NCBI RefSeq assembly: GCF_007752535.1
Contig: NZ_CP036426.1
Span: 7,998,001 to 8,062,000, forward strand
DNA: 64,000 bases
Source: Tautonia plasticadhaerens
GTDB taxonomy: Bacteria > Planctomycetota > Planctomycetia > Isosphaerales > Isosphaeraceae
Reading direction: 5' to 3'
Part shown: one piece after another, positions 56,908 to 63,990 of the stretch
Position numbering within the stretch: position 1 is the stretch's first letter
Layout of the letters: each line of letters opens with the position of its first letter
Translations under genes and position numbers: made by a program
The notes under the pieces: generated by a model
Databases searched by the model: none
The model's input: the letters and a program-made list of their open reading frames with translations, nothing else
What the model was told of the DNA's origin: nothing

Positions 56908-57930
56908 GTGACGGTCCCCACCTGCTTCTTCCTCTCCCCGCTGGCCGGCTACACGGCGCTCGCCTATCGCCAGACCGTCCGGGAGCTGGGCGGCCTGGGC
57001 CTGGCGACGACGGATCTCGTCAACGCCCGGTCGCTCATCGAACGTCGGCCGAAGTCGTTCGAGCTGGCCGCGACTAGCCCCGAGGACCAGCCGGCGTCGA
57101 TCCAGATCTACGGCGCCACGACCTGGGAGATGATCGAGGCCACGAAGATCGTCGCCGACCTCGGCCCGTCGATCATCGACATCAACATGGGGTGCCCCGT
57201 CCGCAAGGTGGTGAAGTCCGGCGGCGGCTCGGCCCTGATGTGCGACGGCGACGGCGCGAGGAAGCTCGTCGGCGCGGTGGTCGAGCAATCGCCGGTCCCG
57301 GTGACGGTCAAGATGCGCCTCGGCTGGGACCAGCAGAACCCGACCGCCCCGGAGCTGGCCCGCCTGTTCGAGTCGATCGGCGTGGCCGCCGTGATCGTCC
57401 ACGGCCGGACCCGGGCCCAGGGCTTCAGCGGCATGGTCGACCGATCGGGGATCGCCCGGGTGGTGGAGGCGGTCGACCGGATGCCGGTCATCGGCAACGG
57501 CGACATCCGCACCATCGTCGACGCCGAGGCCATGTTCCGGGAGACCGGCTGCGCGGCCATCTCCATCGGCCGGGGTTCGCTCTCCAATCCCTTCGTCTTC
57601 CGACAGCTCCAGCACTGGGCCGAGCACGGCACCGCCGGCCCCGAGCCCTCGTTCGAGGACCGGATCGCGGTGATGGAACGCCACTTCCACCGCCTCGCCG
57701 AGACCCGAGGCGAGCACCTGGCCTGCCTCCAGTTCCGCAAGGTCCTGAAGTGGTACAGCTACGCCATCCGGCCGCCGAAGGAGCTGTACCTCCGCCTGGT
57801 CAACCTCCCCAGCCGGGCCACGTTCGATGCCGTCGTCTCCGAAATGCGGGCCGCCGGGCCCTGCGCCCCCCTGCCCTCCCAGTTCGAGCCCCGGGTCCCC
57901 ACGCCCAAGGGGCCGATCGACAAGTGGTGA
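56908..57930 (+). CDS. dus: tRNA-dihydrouridine synthase
   Basis: FMN-dependent enzyme (340 residues as drawn) reducing uridines in tRNA D-loops. Signature blocks are LSPLAGYTALAYR, QIYGATTWEMIEATKIVADL, IDINMGCPVRKVVKSGGGSA (with the catalytic Cys), VTVKMRLGW, VIVHGRTRAQGFSG and VIGNGDIRT, closest to the DusB type. The GTG at 56908 is only the first in-frame start. The frame continues upstream without a stop as KEPLAIGS before VTVPTCFF, which matches the usual family N-terminus, so the protein probably starts further upstream. A GTG at 56810 with GGAGGAG before it is in another frame and would join only if the C12 tract had one more or two fewer C. Confidence 0.9.
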   Translation: MTVPTCFFLSPLAGYTALAYRQTVRELGGLGLATTDLVNARSLIERRPKSFELAATSPEDQPASIQIYGATTWEMIEATKIVADLGPSIIDINMGCPVRKVVKSGGGSALMCDGDGARKLVGAVVEQSPVPVTVKMRLGWDQQNPTAPELARLFESIGVAAVIVHGRTRAQGFSGMVDRSGIARVVEAVDRMPVIGNGDIRTIVDAEAMFRETGCAAISIGRGSLSNPFVFRQLQHWAEHGTAGPEPSFEDRIAVMERHFHRLAETRGEHLACLQFRKVLKWYSYAIRPPKELYLRLVNLPSRATFDAVVSEMRAAGPCAPLPSQFEPRVPTPKGPIDKW

Positions 57931-58026
57931 GCCTCGATCGGCCCGGCACTGCCGGAAAAATGGATTGATCCTCCCCCGGCCCGGCATTACACCGAGGACA
58001 CCCCGCGTCAGGGAGGATCGCGACCC

Positions 58027-59676
58027 GTGCCCCGGACCATCAACGGCGAGGCCCACCGGCACCTCCGCACCCTCTTCGGGGGCGGTGCGGCCGGGGGCCT
58101 CTCGGACGGCCAGCTGCTGGAGCGGTTCAACGCCCGGGACGGCCCCGGGGCCGAGCGGGCGTTCGCGGAGCTGGTCGGGCGGCACGGGCCGATGGTCCTC
58201 CGCTTGGCCCGCTCCATCCTCCGAGACCGGGACGCCGCCGAGGACGCCTTCCAGGCCGCCTTCCTCGCCCTGGCCCGCCGGGCCGGCTCGCTCTGGGTCC
58301 GCGACTCGATCGGCCCGTGGCTGAACGCCGTGACCGTCCGGCTCTCAACCCGGATGCGCTCCGACCGCGCCCGTCGCCGACTCCTCGACGAGCGGGCCGC
58401 GAGCCGGTCGTCAACCTCCAACGAACCGGGCGAGGCGGACGACCTCGGCGCCGCCCTGCACGAGGAAATCGCTCGCCTGCCCGACCGCCACCGCCTGCCG
58501 ATCGTCCTTTGCCTGGTCGAGGGCCTCACCCACGACGAGGCCGCCCGACGCCTGGACTGGCCGGTCGGCACCGTCCGCAGCCGACTGGCCCGGGGCCGCG
58601 ATCGCCTCCGTGACCGGCTCGCTCGGCGTGGGATCTCGCCCTCGGCGATCCCGATCGGCCTGGGGATCAGGCGATCGGCCCCCGAGGTGGTCCACGCCTC
58701 GCTCCGGGCCGCGACCGTCCGGGCGGCGGTGTCCGCAACGCATGGCGGCCTGATCGCGGCGGCCGGGGCGGTCCCGGCCGGCACGATCGCCGCGGTGATT
58801 GCCGTCCTCAGGGAGATGACCATGATTCAGCGCACCTTGCTCGTCGTCGGCCTCGTCGCCTCGGGAGTCCTCGCGGCCGAGGCCTCGCGCTCGGCCCAGT
58901 CGAGGTCGGAGCTGCCCCCGACAACTAACCCTCCGCCGGAATCGTCGACCCCGTCGCTCGAGAGTGAGTCAGAGTCGATCACCCGGGTCTATTCGGTTGG
59001 CGACCTGATCTTCATCCCCCACGCGGAGCGGATCCTCTCCTTAAAGGAGGACGGCACATCCGTCGCGACAGTCTCCCCGGGCCTGGCCAGCTTCGGCCCG
59101 CTCATCGACCTCCTCACGTCAACCGTCGCCCCCGGGACCTGGACCGTCGGTGAACCTCGAAGCGGAGATGGATCGACCGTGACGGATCGCTCGATCACGC
59201 CCTTCCACCTGAACCTCAGCCTAATCGTCCGCCATTCGCCCGAGGTCCACGAACAGGTCGTCGAGCGACTCCGGCAGCTCCGCCGGATCGTCGGGCCGCT
59301 CGCCGGGGTCGGAGAGGAGGTCGAGGAACATCGGCCAGTGCCGGTGCCGGGCGGCCTGGGGCAAACTCGCGGGCCGAGCAATCCCGACCAATCCCCCCTG
59401 GCCAGGCCCAACCGACCTGAAGGCGGCCTCGCCCCGTCGGAATCGTCCGAGACAACCGAGTCGCCCCGAGCGAGGCTCTCGACGGACGGGACTCTGCTCG
59501 AATCGCCATTCGGACTCGTGCCTTCCGCGCGCTCATCCGGCCGAACGACCACCGATCAGGCCGACCGCATTGAAGCCCTTGAGCAGAAACTCGACGCGAT
59601 CCTTGAGGAACTCCGCTCAATCCGGGCCGAGGGCGACCGGCTCGACCTCGAACCCCTCGACGGGCCTGGATCGTGA
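58027..59676 (+). CDS. ECF sigma factor fused to a membrane anchor and exported domain
   Basis: A 549-residue protein. Residues 1-200 are an ECF-type sigma-70 factor: region 2 in FAELVGRHGPMVLRLARSIL and RDAAEDAFQAAFLALARRAG, region 4 with the helix-turn-helix GLTHDEAARRLDWPVGTVRS. Hydrophobic segments follow at about 240-262 and 266-285 (RTLLVVGLVASGVLAAEA). Beyond them is a domain with VYSVGDLIFIP, LIDLLTSTVAPGTWTV and NLSLIVRHSPEVHEQVVERL, a module found in many planctomycete exported proteins and reminiscent of secretin-type N-domains. The C-terminus ends in a coiled coil (IEALEQKLDAILEELRSIR). The GTG at 58027 has GGGAGG about 10 bases upstream. No separate anti-sigma gene is adjacent, so regulation is probably built into the protein. 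Confidence 0.85.
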   Translation: MPRTINGEAHRHLRTLFGGGAAGGLSDGQLLERFNARDGPGAERAFAELVGRHGPMVLRLARSILRDRDAAEDAFQAAFLALARRAGSLWVRDSIGPWLNAVTVRLSTRMRSDRARRRLLDERAASRSSTSNEPGEADDLGAALHEEIARLPDRHRLPIVLCLVEGLTHDEAARRLDWPVGTVRSRLARGRDRLRDRLARRGISPSAIPIGLGIRRSAPEVVHASLRAATVRAAVSATHGGLIAAAGAVPAGTIAAVIAVLREMTMIQRTLLVVGLVASGVLAAEASRSAQSRSELPPTTNPPPESSTPSLESESESITRVYSVGDLIFIPHAERILSLKEDGTSVATVSPGLASFGPLIDLLTSTVAPGTWTVGEPRSGDGSTVTDRSITPFHLNLSLIVRHSPEVHEQVVERLRQLRRIVGPLAGVGEEVEEHRPVPVPGGLGQTRGPSNPDQSPLARPNRPEGGLAPSESSETTESPRARLSTDGTLLESPFGLVPSARSSGRTTTDQADRIEALEQKLDAILEELRSIRAEGDRLDLEPLDGPGS

Positions 59677-59811: not shown

Positions 59812-62763
59812 CTAATCGGAGGGAGTCGACCAACCCTCCAGGGGCCGTGCCACCGATTCACCCTCGACGAGCCGATACGCCGCGTCGGGCCTTAGGTCGT
59901 CGAAGCGGTCGACCCGGCCGCCGGGCCATCGGACCTCGACCGACACGGGCTCGCCTGCCGGCACCGGGCCGAGCCCGACGTGCACGCGGCCGTCGTTGGC
60001 GGACAGGAAGCTGCCGCCGCCGAGGCGGTGGCGGGCCTGGGTCCGGCCCGAGGCCGACACCCGGACCCGGGCGCCCACGGCGTCCCGGTTCGATCGCGTC
60101 CCCTCCAACTTCAGCGTCAGATATCGGCCGGCCGACCCCGCGCCATCCGTCGTGCCGAGGTTCCGCAGGAACGCCAGGGGGCCGGCCTGGGAGAGGATCA
60201 ACACGTCCTGCCATCCGTCGTTGTCCAGGTCGCCGACCGCCAGCCCGCGCGCCACGCGCTCGACCGACCAGCATTGGCCGGCGCGATCGGACACCTCGGC
60301 CAGCCGGCCGTCCCCCATGCCGAGGAACAGCTGCGCGGGCATCGCGTATGGGGTGCCGGGGCGGAAGTCGTTGACGTGGCCGTTGGCCTGGGCCACGTCG
60401 AGCCGGCCGTCGTTGTTGGCGTCGAGCAGCGCCAGGCCGAAGCCGAGGACGAACCGGGTCGGGGCGGCGAGGCCGAGGTCGCCGGAGGCGTAGGCGAACT
60501 GGCCGCCGCCGAGGTTCCGGAAGGCGGAGGTCGATTCGCCGTAGAAGTTCGTCACCAGCAGCTCGGGCCGTTCGTCGCCGTCCAGGTCGCCGCAGGCCAC
60601 CCCCATGCCGGCCTGGTAGCCCCCGTCGGCGTTTGAGCCCACCCCGGCCAGCTCGCCCACCTGCTCGAACCGGAAGCCGCCGAGGTTGCAGAACAGCAGG
60701 TCGGCGGTCATGTCGTTGGCGACGTAGAGGTCGATCCGATCGTCGCCGTCCAGGTCGGCCGCGACGACCCCCAGCCCCCGGCCGTCGGGGTCGACGATCC
60801 CGGCCTGCTCCGTCACGTCGACGAACCGGCCCCCGTCGTTGCGGAAGACGCGGTCGGGCTCGGACTCGAAGCGCCGGGGGACGCAGTACATGAACCGGCC
60901 CGGGGAGTTGGGGTCCGGGCAGGGGGCGTCGGTCTCGGGATCCCAGCGCACGTACTGGCAGACGTAGAGGTCCAGGTCGCCGTCGTCGTCCAGGTCGGCG
61001 AAGGCGGCCGAGGTCGGCCAGCCCCGATCCCCCCCCAGCCCGGCCTCCTCGGTGGCGTCGGCGAAGGTGCCGTCCCCCTCGTTCCGATAGAGCGCATACG
61101 ACCGCCACCGGGTGACGAACAGGTCCGGGTCGCCGTCGTCGTCAAAATCGCCCACGGCGACGCCGTGGCCGAACCCCCGGGGGAAGCCGGAGATGCCGGA
61201 GGCGTCGGTCACGTCCTCGAAGGTGCCCTCGCCGAGGTTGCGGAACAGGCGATCCCCCCCCCCGGCCGACGCGGAGCCTCCCGGGAACCGACCGCCCTGG
61301 ACGCAGTAGACATCGACCCAACCGTCGCCGTCGTAGTCGAGCAGGCCGAGGCCGCCCCCCATCGTCTCGGGGAGCCGACGCTCGGGGGTCTGGTCGTTCT
61401 CGTAGACGAACGCCAGGCCCGAAGTCGCCGCCTCGTCCCGGAAGCTCGGGATCGGGGGGAGGTCGCCCGGTGAGCCGACGGGCGAGGGCGAGTCGGCCGG
61501 GCGGGCCCCGGGGATGAGGTCGGCGAGGGTCGTCCCGGCGCCGGGGGTCGACGGCCCGGGGAGGCTGCGAAGGCGGTCGAGCGCCGCCCGGGCGTCGAGG
61601 TCTCCGGGGTCGTCCAGGACCCGGATCGTCCACCAGCCCTCGGCCTCGAACCGTCGGCCGAGCGACTCGGCCAGTCGGGCCAGCTCGGCCGAGGGGGGAG
61701 GCCCGCCGGCCGCGAGGGCCCCCATGAGCTTGGCGTATTCATCCTTGAGCCGGTCGATCTCGGCCTTCCGCTCCCGGAGCCGGGAGCGGCGGTCGTCACC
61801 GGCGCCGGGCCGGGCGGCGAGGTCCGCCAGGCGTCCCCAGGCGGCGGCGTCGCCGGGCTCCAGCTCGACCCGACGCTCCAGCGCCGCTCGCTCGGCCTCG
61901 GCGTCCCCCCGGATCGAGGCGAGTCGGGCCCCGATCGAGGCGCCCCGGGGCGAGTCGACCCGATCGGCGGGGATGCCCGCCAGCACCCGATCCGCCTCCC
62001 CGGGACGCCCGGCGACCAGGGCCCATTCGAGCCGGGCGAGCAGCACGTCGGGGTCGTCGGGGCGGCGTGCCTCGCAGCGGTCGAGCCAGGAGTCGGCCTC
62101 GTCGAGCCGGCCGGAGCGTCGGGCGAGGTCGGCCAGGCCGAGCCAGACACGGTCGTCCCCCGGGGCCTCGCGGTAATGACGATCGAGCCGCTCCCGGACG
62201 GCGGCGATCGGCAGCGGCTGCGTCTCGGCCAGCCAATGCGACCGGAGGATCTCGGCCGAAGCCCTCGGCCCCCGGTCCCGGGCCGTCCGCCACTGGCGCT
62301 CGAACCAGTGGGGCAACCGGTCGGACCGGCCGGAGAACAGCAGGAGCTGCTGGGTCATCCGGATCGCCTCGGCGCCGACCTCGTCCCGACGGCCGGCGAT
62401 CGCGTCGAGGCTCCGCTCGGCCTCGGCGAGCCGGCCATGCTCCAGGGCCAGCCGGGCGCGATCGAGGGCCGCCCGGGGTCCGAGGCCGGAATCCTCGGGG
62501 ACCAGGGCCCAGGCGTCGAGCGCGGCCTCGACGTCCCCGAGGTTCGCCTCGCAGGCCCCGAGGCGGTAGGCCACGTCGGCCCGATCCGGCCGACGATCGA
62601 GGAGCGCGGCCAGGAGGCCCCGGGCCTCCTCGAATCGGCCGGCGGCCATCGCCCGCCCCGCCGCCTCGGACGCGGCCGCATCCCTGCGGTCCCCGATCAC
62701 CCAGGCCATCCCCAGGCCGATCGCGGCGGCCATCGGGAGCAGCAAAATCACTCTCGGTCGCAT
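59812..62763 (-). CDS. Exported TPR / FG-GAP / ASPIC-UnbV protein
   Basis: A 983-residue protein with an N-terminal signal or anchor ([20 protein letters not shown]). About residues 30-420 are helical TPR-type repeats ([39 protein letters not shown]). A large FG-GAP/VCBS-type propeller follows with seven Asp-rich calcium-loop motifs, among them [44 protein letters not shown] and [11 protein letters not shown]. The C-terminal ASPIC/UnbV domain (about 880-980) includes [32 protein letters not shown] and VRWPGGRVD. This architecture is very frequent in planctomycetes and implies a secreted or surface protein of unknown role. ATGs at 62763, 62775 and 62787 are all possible starts. Confidence 0.88.
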
Positions 62764-62840
62764 GATTCCGGCCATGGGACGTGGCATCGGGGCCCCCGGA
62801 TCGGTCGGCCGAACGATCGTCGGGGCGAGGCGGGATGCGA

Positions 62841-62874
62841 GAAAAGGCCCCGCCCGGATCGTCGGGCGGGGCCT
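62841..62874 (-). terminator. Intrinsic terminator of the DUF1559 gene
   Basis: On the minus strand a perfect 12-base stem (AGGCCCCGCCCG at 62863-62874 complement, partner at 62845-62856) with a six-base loop is followed immediately by TTTTC. This is the clearest rho-independent terminator in the window, 28 bases after the stop codon. Confidence 0.8.
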
Positions 62875-62901
62875 CCCCATGGTACGGGATCGGCGAGCCG
62901 A

Positions 62902-63990
62902 TCAGAACTGGTCGGCGCTGATGACCTCGCCGCCCTGCCGGGTGCCGAGGGCCCAGTAGGTGGGCATGGCGATGGTGCTCTTGAGGAACCTCACGCTGCC
63001 GTCGCCGAGCAGGAAGTTGGCCCCGCCGGGGTGGCCGCTGGTAGCGTTGACGATGTTGGAGTGGTCGGCGGAGTACGTGCCGCAAGGCTCGCAGCCGAAG
63101 CGGCACTGGCCCCACTGGTGCTGGGTCGAATTGGGTGGGACGATCGTGTTGAACAGGGTCATCGCGTCGGCGCCCCAGGCCCAGTAGTAGCCCCGGTTGC
63201 TGGCCAGGCCCTGGCCGGGGGCCGCGGTCTGCCAGCGGGTGGTGCAGGCCTGCAGGTTGCTCAGGGTCGTGGGGACGTCCTGGTTGGCGTCGTAGTGGCC
63301 GACCAGTCCGTCCTTGTTAGCTCCGGTGACGTAGGCCCTCCGGAGGTCCTCACCGCTGCCGACGAGCCCCTCGCTGAAGGCGATGGTGTTCGACGAGCCA
63401 TCGGCGATGCTCTGGATGCCATAAGATGTGGCGTAGTAGAACAACCCGGTGCTCCGACCGCCCGGCCTCTGGCAATTGTTGTGGTCGTGGTTGTTGGACG
63501 TGTTCGTGCTCGTCCCCGTACTGGCGTAGTAGTTGTTGAAGAACTGCCGGCCGGCGTTGCCGTCGGAGGGGCAGAGGAAGGTGGCGAGCCGGGTGTTGGT
63601 CAGGGTGCTGTTGAAGGGGTACGACGGCCAGGAGATCGGGTCGAAGTTAAAATTGATGGCGTCGTAGAGCGGCTGGCCCTCGATGTAGCCGAGCAGCATC
63701 GCGTGGGGACTCCAGCCCATCCAGTTGATGCAGGTTCTCGGGCCGTCCTGAAGGTTGTAGGGGTTGTCGGTGGCCGTGGCGCCCAGCGGGAAGGTCCCGT
63801 GGGCGCTGTGGTAGTTGTGCATCGCCAGGCCGATCTGCTTGAGGTTGTTGGTGCACTGGGCGCGGCGGGCGGCCTCCCGGGCGCTCTGCACGGCCGGCAG
63901 CAAGAGGGCGATGAGCACGCCGATGATGGCGATGACGACCAGCAGCTCGATCAACGTGAAGCCGCGGGCCCGTCGCTTGAGAGTTCTCAC
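62902..63990 (-). CDS. DUF1559 protein with prepilin-type N-terminus
   Basis: A 362-residue planctomycete-type DUF1559 protein. The N-terminus is a type IV pilin-like signal: basic RRARG, then [20 protein letters not shown], with prepilin peptidase cleavage expected between Gly and Phe. Family features follow: [60 protein letters not shown] and the C-terminal H-x9-DG motif ([12 protein letters not shown]). Such proteins occur in tens to hundreds of copies in planctomycete genomes and are thought to be pseudopilin-like surface or secretion components. The start is a GTG at 63990, ten bases from the window edge; a start further upstream cannot be excluded. Confidence 0.92.

Follow-up and report, generated by a model that had tools for sequence, protein, structure and literature searches.

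A conserved putative internal start signal in planctomycete genes joining an ECF sigma factor to a membrane segment and an envelope domain

The locus and its long open reading frame

The window, which is the whole 64,000-nucleotide stretch of Tautonia plasticadhaerens DNA that was analysed, carries on its forward strand at 58027–59676 an open reading frame (ORF) of 549 amino acids that opens with GTG (Table 1). Pfam analysis of the encoded protein identified the sigma factor domains Sigma70_r2 (E = 3.3e-8) and Sigma70_r4_2 (E = 2e-13) and no other domain above cut-offs. With regions 2 and 4 present and regions 1.1 and 3 absent, the protein is of ECF type, and its TIGR02937 score is 68.7 bits against a cut-off of 42.9. 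The gene lies between a dihydrouridine synthase gene (Dus; 56908–57930, +) and a gene for an FG-GAP/UnbV_ASPIC protein (59812–62880, −), so there is no anti-sigma gene alongside it, as a first-pass annotation of this DNA had remarked. Relatives with the same layout and uninterrupted frames are present in genomes G002 (54% identity) and G003 (56% identity), and the fused layout is therefore no assembly artefact. The dus neighbour is found beside both of these relatives and the UnbV_ASPIC neighbour in the G003 stretch only. The genome of the window (G000) also encodes M50 (site-2-type) proteases and has 95 DUF1559/SBP_bac_10 matches, one of which is inside the window at 62902–63990 (−).

Table 1. 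Features of the sigma factor gene, in positions of the window
Feature	Position	Strand	Basis or remark
Shine-Dalgarno (SD) sequence of the sigma ORF, AGGGAGGA	58010..58017	+	nine bases 5' of the GTG
Long ORF: sigma factor, linker, membrane segment, predicted extracytoplasmic part	58027..59676	+	549 amino acids; full-length orthologues in G002 and G003
Sigma-70 region 2, residues 49–116	58171..58374	+	Pfam; residue 61 is Ala
Sigma-70 region 4, residues 143–194	58453..58608	+	Pfam; includes the family Cys162
Internal SD-like AGGGAG	58810..58815	+	its GGAG is 6 nt 5' of ATG 58822; family-wide enrichment
Proposed nested ORF from ATG 58822 (Met266), 284 amino acids, N-terminus MIQRTLLVVGLVASGVLAAEAS	58822..59676	+	Met column and SD conserved; mRNA predicted to be weakly folded
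Hydrophobic core (residues 270–284) of the predicted membrane segment or signal-peptide h-region	58834..58878	+	hydropathy; AlphaFold2
Secretin N1-like domain, residues 316–425	58972..59301	+	alignment with secretins; AlphaFold2; VIA-align
C-terminal long helix, probable coiled coil, residues 508–538	59548..59640	+	AlphaFold2

A planctomycete family of fused sigma factors

Matches to the family of this protein were found in all 40 genomes searched, and the genome of the window alone has 90 ECF-type matches above the family cut-off. From these 90, 37 frames over the cut-off with an open frame of at least 420 amino acids were taken (shorter frames were left out), of which 27 have the fused layout and 10 unfused frames were dropped. 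A further 81 loci of other Isosphaeraceae were chosen by eye among the matches listed outside this genome, and 80 of them were fetched. Together with the window protein these form a first set of 108 members, or 107 without L160, which was dropped because a contig end truncates it. The second set consists of 40 of the 87 matches in G035, the genome of another family. The third set, from named genomes, comprises 41 of 80 loci, with genomes recognised in the first set excluded and L421 dropped for an early frame end; it is only partly independent, because Singulisphaera acidiphila is close to a Singulisphaera genome of the first set.

Common to the members are regions 2 and 4, a linker and a membrane segment, beyond which they diverge. 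Among the 28 members from the genome of the window, the downstream part features CarboxypepD_reg in eight, Big_1 in four, AhpC-TSA in three, HlyD in two, SLBB/Poly_export in one and other domains besides, while that of the window protein has no Pfam domain. Judged by these assignments, the downstream domains of the 27 paralogues are mostly of envelope type. The first-pass annotation had proposed a search for the same architecture elsewhere; this showed that the window protein is no oddity and that, by sequence, the fused sigma-membrane-envelope layout is that of a large planctomycete family with interchangeable envelope domains, near the published group ECF57. A family cysteine is found at column 61 in 101 of 108 members and at column 162 in 107, and the window protein and its closest relatives in G002 and G003 have Ala at residue 61 (58207–58209 in the window) and retain the region 4 cysteine. 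The frame is open from the sigma regions to the C-terminus in nearly all relatives, with one stop among the matches listed. Inspection by eye recognised no transporter gene downstream of the HlyD-type members L077 and L085, and indicated that one family member, L288, is disrupted 3' of the membrane segment, apparently by a transposase insertion.

Kyte-Doolittle analysis of the window protein gave two hydrophobic stretches, residues 242–260 (2.17) and 266–284 (1.76), and an insertion scale gave 2.03 and 2.52, neither of which is favourable. Within the window protein the first stretch has the higher hydropathy, and the second is singled out by the family: a hydropathy peak of at least 1.6 is present in the second stretch of 101 of 107 members and in the first stretch of 20. 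AlphaFold2 predicted residues 251–291 of the full protein (mean pLDDT 72, pTM 0.46) as a single helix without a hairpin. A two-segment hairpin that would return the C-terminal part to the inside was rejected on the basis of the family hydropathy and this single helix. In 73 of 107 members the residues preceding the segment include more Lys and Arg than those following it, and in 12 fewer; downstream of the segment, 88 of 107 have an A-x-A motif by a crude pattern match. The topology is therefore predicted, as most likely, to be one segment with the sigma part inside and the C-terminal part outside; the Lys/Arg bias and the envelope-type domains of the paralogues both point to the extracytoplasmic location that had been proposed for the latter. 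The membrane region had been placed at residues 240–285, and a segment is indeed present, as one segment near 270–290 and not across the whole span.

Residues 316–425 align with a 1386-amino acid secretin of the same genome (L100), within the stretch between its STN and Secretin domains as assigned by Pfam, and in this alignment (A1) identity to the row of the window protein is 30–46%. This domain is found in 30 of the 40 genomes, mainly in long frames of secretin length (of which L100 alone was scanned with Pfam), and also in sigma-type frames of 507–589 amino acids in eight genomes. The AlphaFold2 model of the domain has a pLDDT of 85, and the first 19 rows of a VIA-align comparison were all secretin structures (Z 6.3–8.0, where a Z below 8 can mean a common arrangement), with the first non-secretin at rank 20. 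Foldseek returned no match to the domain in the PDB at E ≤ 0.001, and the domain profile had a single match among the sequences of solved structures, which was set aside at E = 0.89. We call residues 316–425 secretin N1-like. The likeness to the planctomycete secretin (L100:2662-6822) and others of its kind is one of sequence alignment, while a likeness to the N1 domains of GspD, XcpQ, EscC and PilQ is suggested by the predicted fold; unlike in secretins, the domain of the window protein is separated from a pore and attached to a sigma factor. The presence of this domain in the 1386-amino acid secretin agrees with the earlier statement that it otherwise belongs to exported planctomycete proteins, and Pfam, hydropathy and the secretin alignment together bear out a single chain of sigma regions 2 and 4, a membrane segment and an exported-type domain. 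A C-terminal coiled coil had also been described: residues 508–538 are a confident helix in the AlphaFold2 model, and the coiled coil itself is probable. In one locus, L112 (the same place as L010), a sigma fusion apparently carries the secretin N1-like domain twice in tandem.

A putative start signal within the sigma frame

From the end of region 4 to the C-terminal part, no residue is better conserved than Met264, which 83 of 108 members have; 28 have Met266. The numbers of SD sequences expected at these positions were obtained from 200 codon shuffles that preserve the protein sequence. An SD precedes Met264 in 58 of 83 members (21.9 ± 3.1 expected) and Met266 in 25 of 28 (7.1 ± 1.9 expected), and neither count was reached in any of the 200 shuffles; at the control Met56 in region 2 an SD was found in 10 of 94 (11.7 expected). 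A scan of residues 30–330 peaked above all at 262 (69 of 107 against 25.4, z 13.6), with a lesser maximum at region 4 column 185 (29 of 108 against 19.6, z 5.1). The position of the SD follows the register of the methionine, as a far SD is found in 47 of 55 members with Met264 only and a near SD in all nine with Met266 only, and six of the nine members without Met at 263–266 lack an SD. In the window the spacing to ATG 58822 is within the normal range, and another ATG, at 58816 (Met264), lies 5' of it and overlaps the SD end. In the commoner Met264 register the spacing from SD to ATG is 11–13 nt, compared with 6–10 nt at true starts, which argues against a start there.

The association between SD and ATG recurred in all three sets. 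Among the Isosphaeraceae, an SD accompanies an ATG at 262–267 in 89 of 99 members (37.3 ± 3.4 expected) and is found in none of the seven that lack a start codon, nor in the one with GTG/TTG only. In G035 the counts are 17 of 23 with ATG (7.1 ± 1.6 expected), 4 of 6 with GTG/TTG only (2.1 expected) and 1 of 11 without a start codon (1.2 expected), and in the named-genome set they are 26 of 33 (8.5 ± 2.0 expected), 0 of 1 and 0 of 6, respectively. After near-duplicate rows had been dropped, and with expectations drawn from regional codon usage, the SD was present in 83 of 93 (35.4 ± 3.5 expected). Counted over a fixed stretch, the motif is present in 113 of 122 members with ATG and in 8 of 25 without. 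Members with ATG encode Gly259 by GGA in 41 of 47 cases and those without in none of three, whereas GGA makes up 13.4% of all Gly codons. In 71 of 93 members the mRNA from −30 to +24 at the internal ATG is predicted to fold more weakly than codon-shuffled versions of itself (p = 2.4e-10), and the sigma gene of the window likewise folds less than its shuffles at the outer start (z 1.7) and at the inner one (z 1.95). For comparison, 26 of 30 true starts of DUF1559 genes in the genome of the window have an SD. Kinase genes of the same genome served as a control; in 24 of 30 loci the kinase domain is followed by a membrane segment, which the other six lack. Among the 24, no SD enrichment was seen (z −1.1 to 0.8) and an ATG lies near the segment in one, and the internal signal is therefore not general to membrane segments. 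Two of the kinase matches (G000:C4:43876-44688 and G000:C4:74006-74818) have equal scores on one small contig and are probably a recent duplication.

These comparisons suggest a point that the first-pass annotation had not raised, namely that an SD and a Met codon at the start of the membrane segment are conserved inside the sigma ORF across more than 100 related genes; judged by synonymous codon choice, this internal start codon and ribosome-binding signal are kept by selection. The conservation has exceptions. A start codon is missing in 7 of 107 Isosphaeraceae members and in 11 of 40 G035 members; the latter (L242, L247, L252, L255, L258, L262, L272, L274, L276, L279 and L280) have a membrane segment and no start codon at 262–267, and look like the same architecture without a nested start. 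A tree of 147 members requires at least 13 changes of ATG and at least 17 of SD, and phylogenetically independent pairs, of which there are only seven, were too few (4.0 concordant, 0.1 opposite and 2.9 undecided; median p = 0.125).

Frameshifting at the SD-like stretch was considered and judged unlikely. Nearby stops in the +1 frame were found in 83 of 99 members (77.1 ± 2.8 expected) and stops in the −1 frame in 4 (9.9 expected); the former being slightly above expectation and the latter below it, there is no conserved early stop. Three members are interrupted further upstream and have an open frame from the internal Met onward: L282 (TGA at the end of region 4), L287 (TAA) and L289 (a change of frame). 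They were not taken as a sign that the nested ORF lives alone, because it was the sigma region that led to them and the lesions may stem from errors in sequencing; alternatively, they could reflect loss of the sigma factor with the exported part kept.

Readings of the signal and comparison with known systems

We favour the view, probable though well short of certain, that this is a two-product gene encoding a membrane-tethered sigma factor and, from ATG 58822, a separate exported domain of 284 amino acids. Translation from GTG 58027 would give a long form, consisting of the ECF-type sigma factor, one N-in/C-out inner-membrane segment, and the N1-like domain and helix outside. Translation from the internal SD and ATG (58810–58824) would give a short form without the sigma factor, in which the same segment would serve as an N-terminal signal peptide or anchor for the outside domain. 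The internal signal implies such separate synthesis of the exported part; the uninterrupted frame in almost every relative listed suggests that cells produce and use the long form, and retention of the SD and ATG suggests the same of the short form. The two forms would have one sensor or envelope domain in common, and the simplest use, and the likely logic, would be for the long form to report on the envelope protein supplied by the short form, either on its state or on its amount. This might be achieved by co-assembly of both forms or by competition for one partner, and the sigma factor might be activated by proteolysis, by a change of shape or by local action at the membrane. The first-pass annotation had described a tethered sigma factor that needs no separate anti-sigma factor, which is compatible with the layout and with the absence of an anti-sigma gene, and had not noticed the internal start signal.

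Should translation begin at the internal starts, a large number of planctomycete sigma genes would each encode an exported protein that present annotation overlooks. The arrangement would also offer a possible answer to how sigma factors without anti-sigma genes are wired to the envelope, and would be unusual in that a single frame encodes both a transcription factor and an exported protein which this factor may monitor. More tentatively, and with slightly less than even confidence, we extend this proposal to planctomycetes at large: each such ECF gene, of which some genomes have dozens, would yield an envelope protein alone and a sigma-bearing copy of it as a built-in reporter on the export, folding, assembly or amount of that protein, so that a swap of the outer domain would rewire sensing.

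Three other explanations were weighed. The SD-like stretch might be a translational pause that aids insertion of the membrane segment and starts nothing, to which we give very little credence. Its place just 5' of the membrane segment in all sets and the long spacing of the Met264 register, atypical for a start, would suit a pause, but the SD depends on the ATG and moves two codons with it, the 24 kinase membrane segments have no enrichment at any offset, and weak mRNA folding around the ATG suits a start. Less credible still is that the SD and ATG are unused remains of an ancient fusion between a sigma gene and a downstream gene for an exported protein. ATGA, the usual overlap of coupled genes, is found at column 264 in 31 members and the segment resembles a signal peptide, both of which are in keeping with such an origin. 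An unused signal should have decayed, however, whereas members that are only ~40–55% identical retain the SD through rare codons, and codon shuffles that preserve the protein fail to reproduce it.

The remaining explanation, in line with the first-pass annotation and in our view unlikely, is a single product: a sigma factor tethered to the membrane, with its own outside domain in place of a separate anti-sigma factor, and released by regulated proteolysis, the internal signal being irrelevant. The layout and the lack of an anti-sigma neighbour favour it, as do the M50 proteases encoded in the genome, the published precedent of IutY and the predicted cases ECF48, ECF52 and ECF53 (PMC8999054). 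Detergent-soluble fractions of Tuwongella immobilis contained some of its ECF sigma factors (PMC8567305), which also speaks for this explanation; the finding agrees with membrane contact and does not separate long from short forms. A single product leaves unaccounted for an SD that synonymous codon choice preserves, that accompanies the ATG and that disappears where the ATG does, and Pfam detects neither a zinc finger nor any other anti-sigma domain in the stretch from region 4 to the segment.

The closest published group is ECF57, planctomycete ECF sigma factors with C-terminal extensions, exemplified by WP_015250107.1 of S. acidiphila (PMC8999054), a species whose members belong to our third set. 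The likeness lies in the ECF-type sigma factor, the long C-terminal extension and the planctomycete hosts, and the conserved cysteines described for ECF57 in regions 2 and 4 correspond to family columns 61 and 162. As described there, a WD40-type extension is prevalent in ECF57 without being universal. The family as a whole has the two-cysteine mark, but the window protein, with Ala61 and Cys162, lacks it and has a secretin N1-like domain and, by Pfam, no WD40; without a region 2 cysteine and WD40, it is set apart from ECF57 by the described marks. Switching of ECF57 is presented as protein interaction, and the description of the group in that source mentions no internal start (PMC8999054). 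No report of internal starts in sigma/membrane fusions was found in the literature searched, a search that most subscription papers lay outside.

The fused sigma/anti-sigma factors IutY (ECF243), ECF48, ECF52 and ECF53 likewise combine a sigma factor, a membrane segment (predicted in our case) and an outside domain in a single chain. They differ, as described in the same source, in having an anti-sigma domain before the membrane segment, whereas residues 200–549 of the window protein match no zinc-finger or other anti-sigma Pfam family up to E = 1. According to that description, activation through Prc/RseP is known for IutY only (PMC8999054).

The proposed internal start has counterparts among genes that yield two products in one frame, such as cas8b, within which Cas11b is encoded (PMC11899642), two-polypeptide endolysins (PMC9430671) and the ClpB isoforms (PMC6168691). 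In the accounts of these systems, a same-frame internal start yields the C-terminal part alone, as proposed here from sequence. Their products are described as subunits of enzymes or complexes, whereas the planctomycete genes would pair a transcription factor with an exported protein, and would do so in many members per genome.
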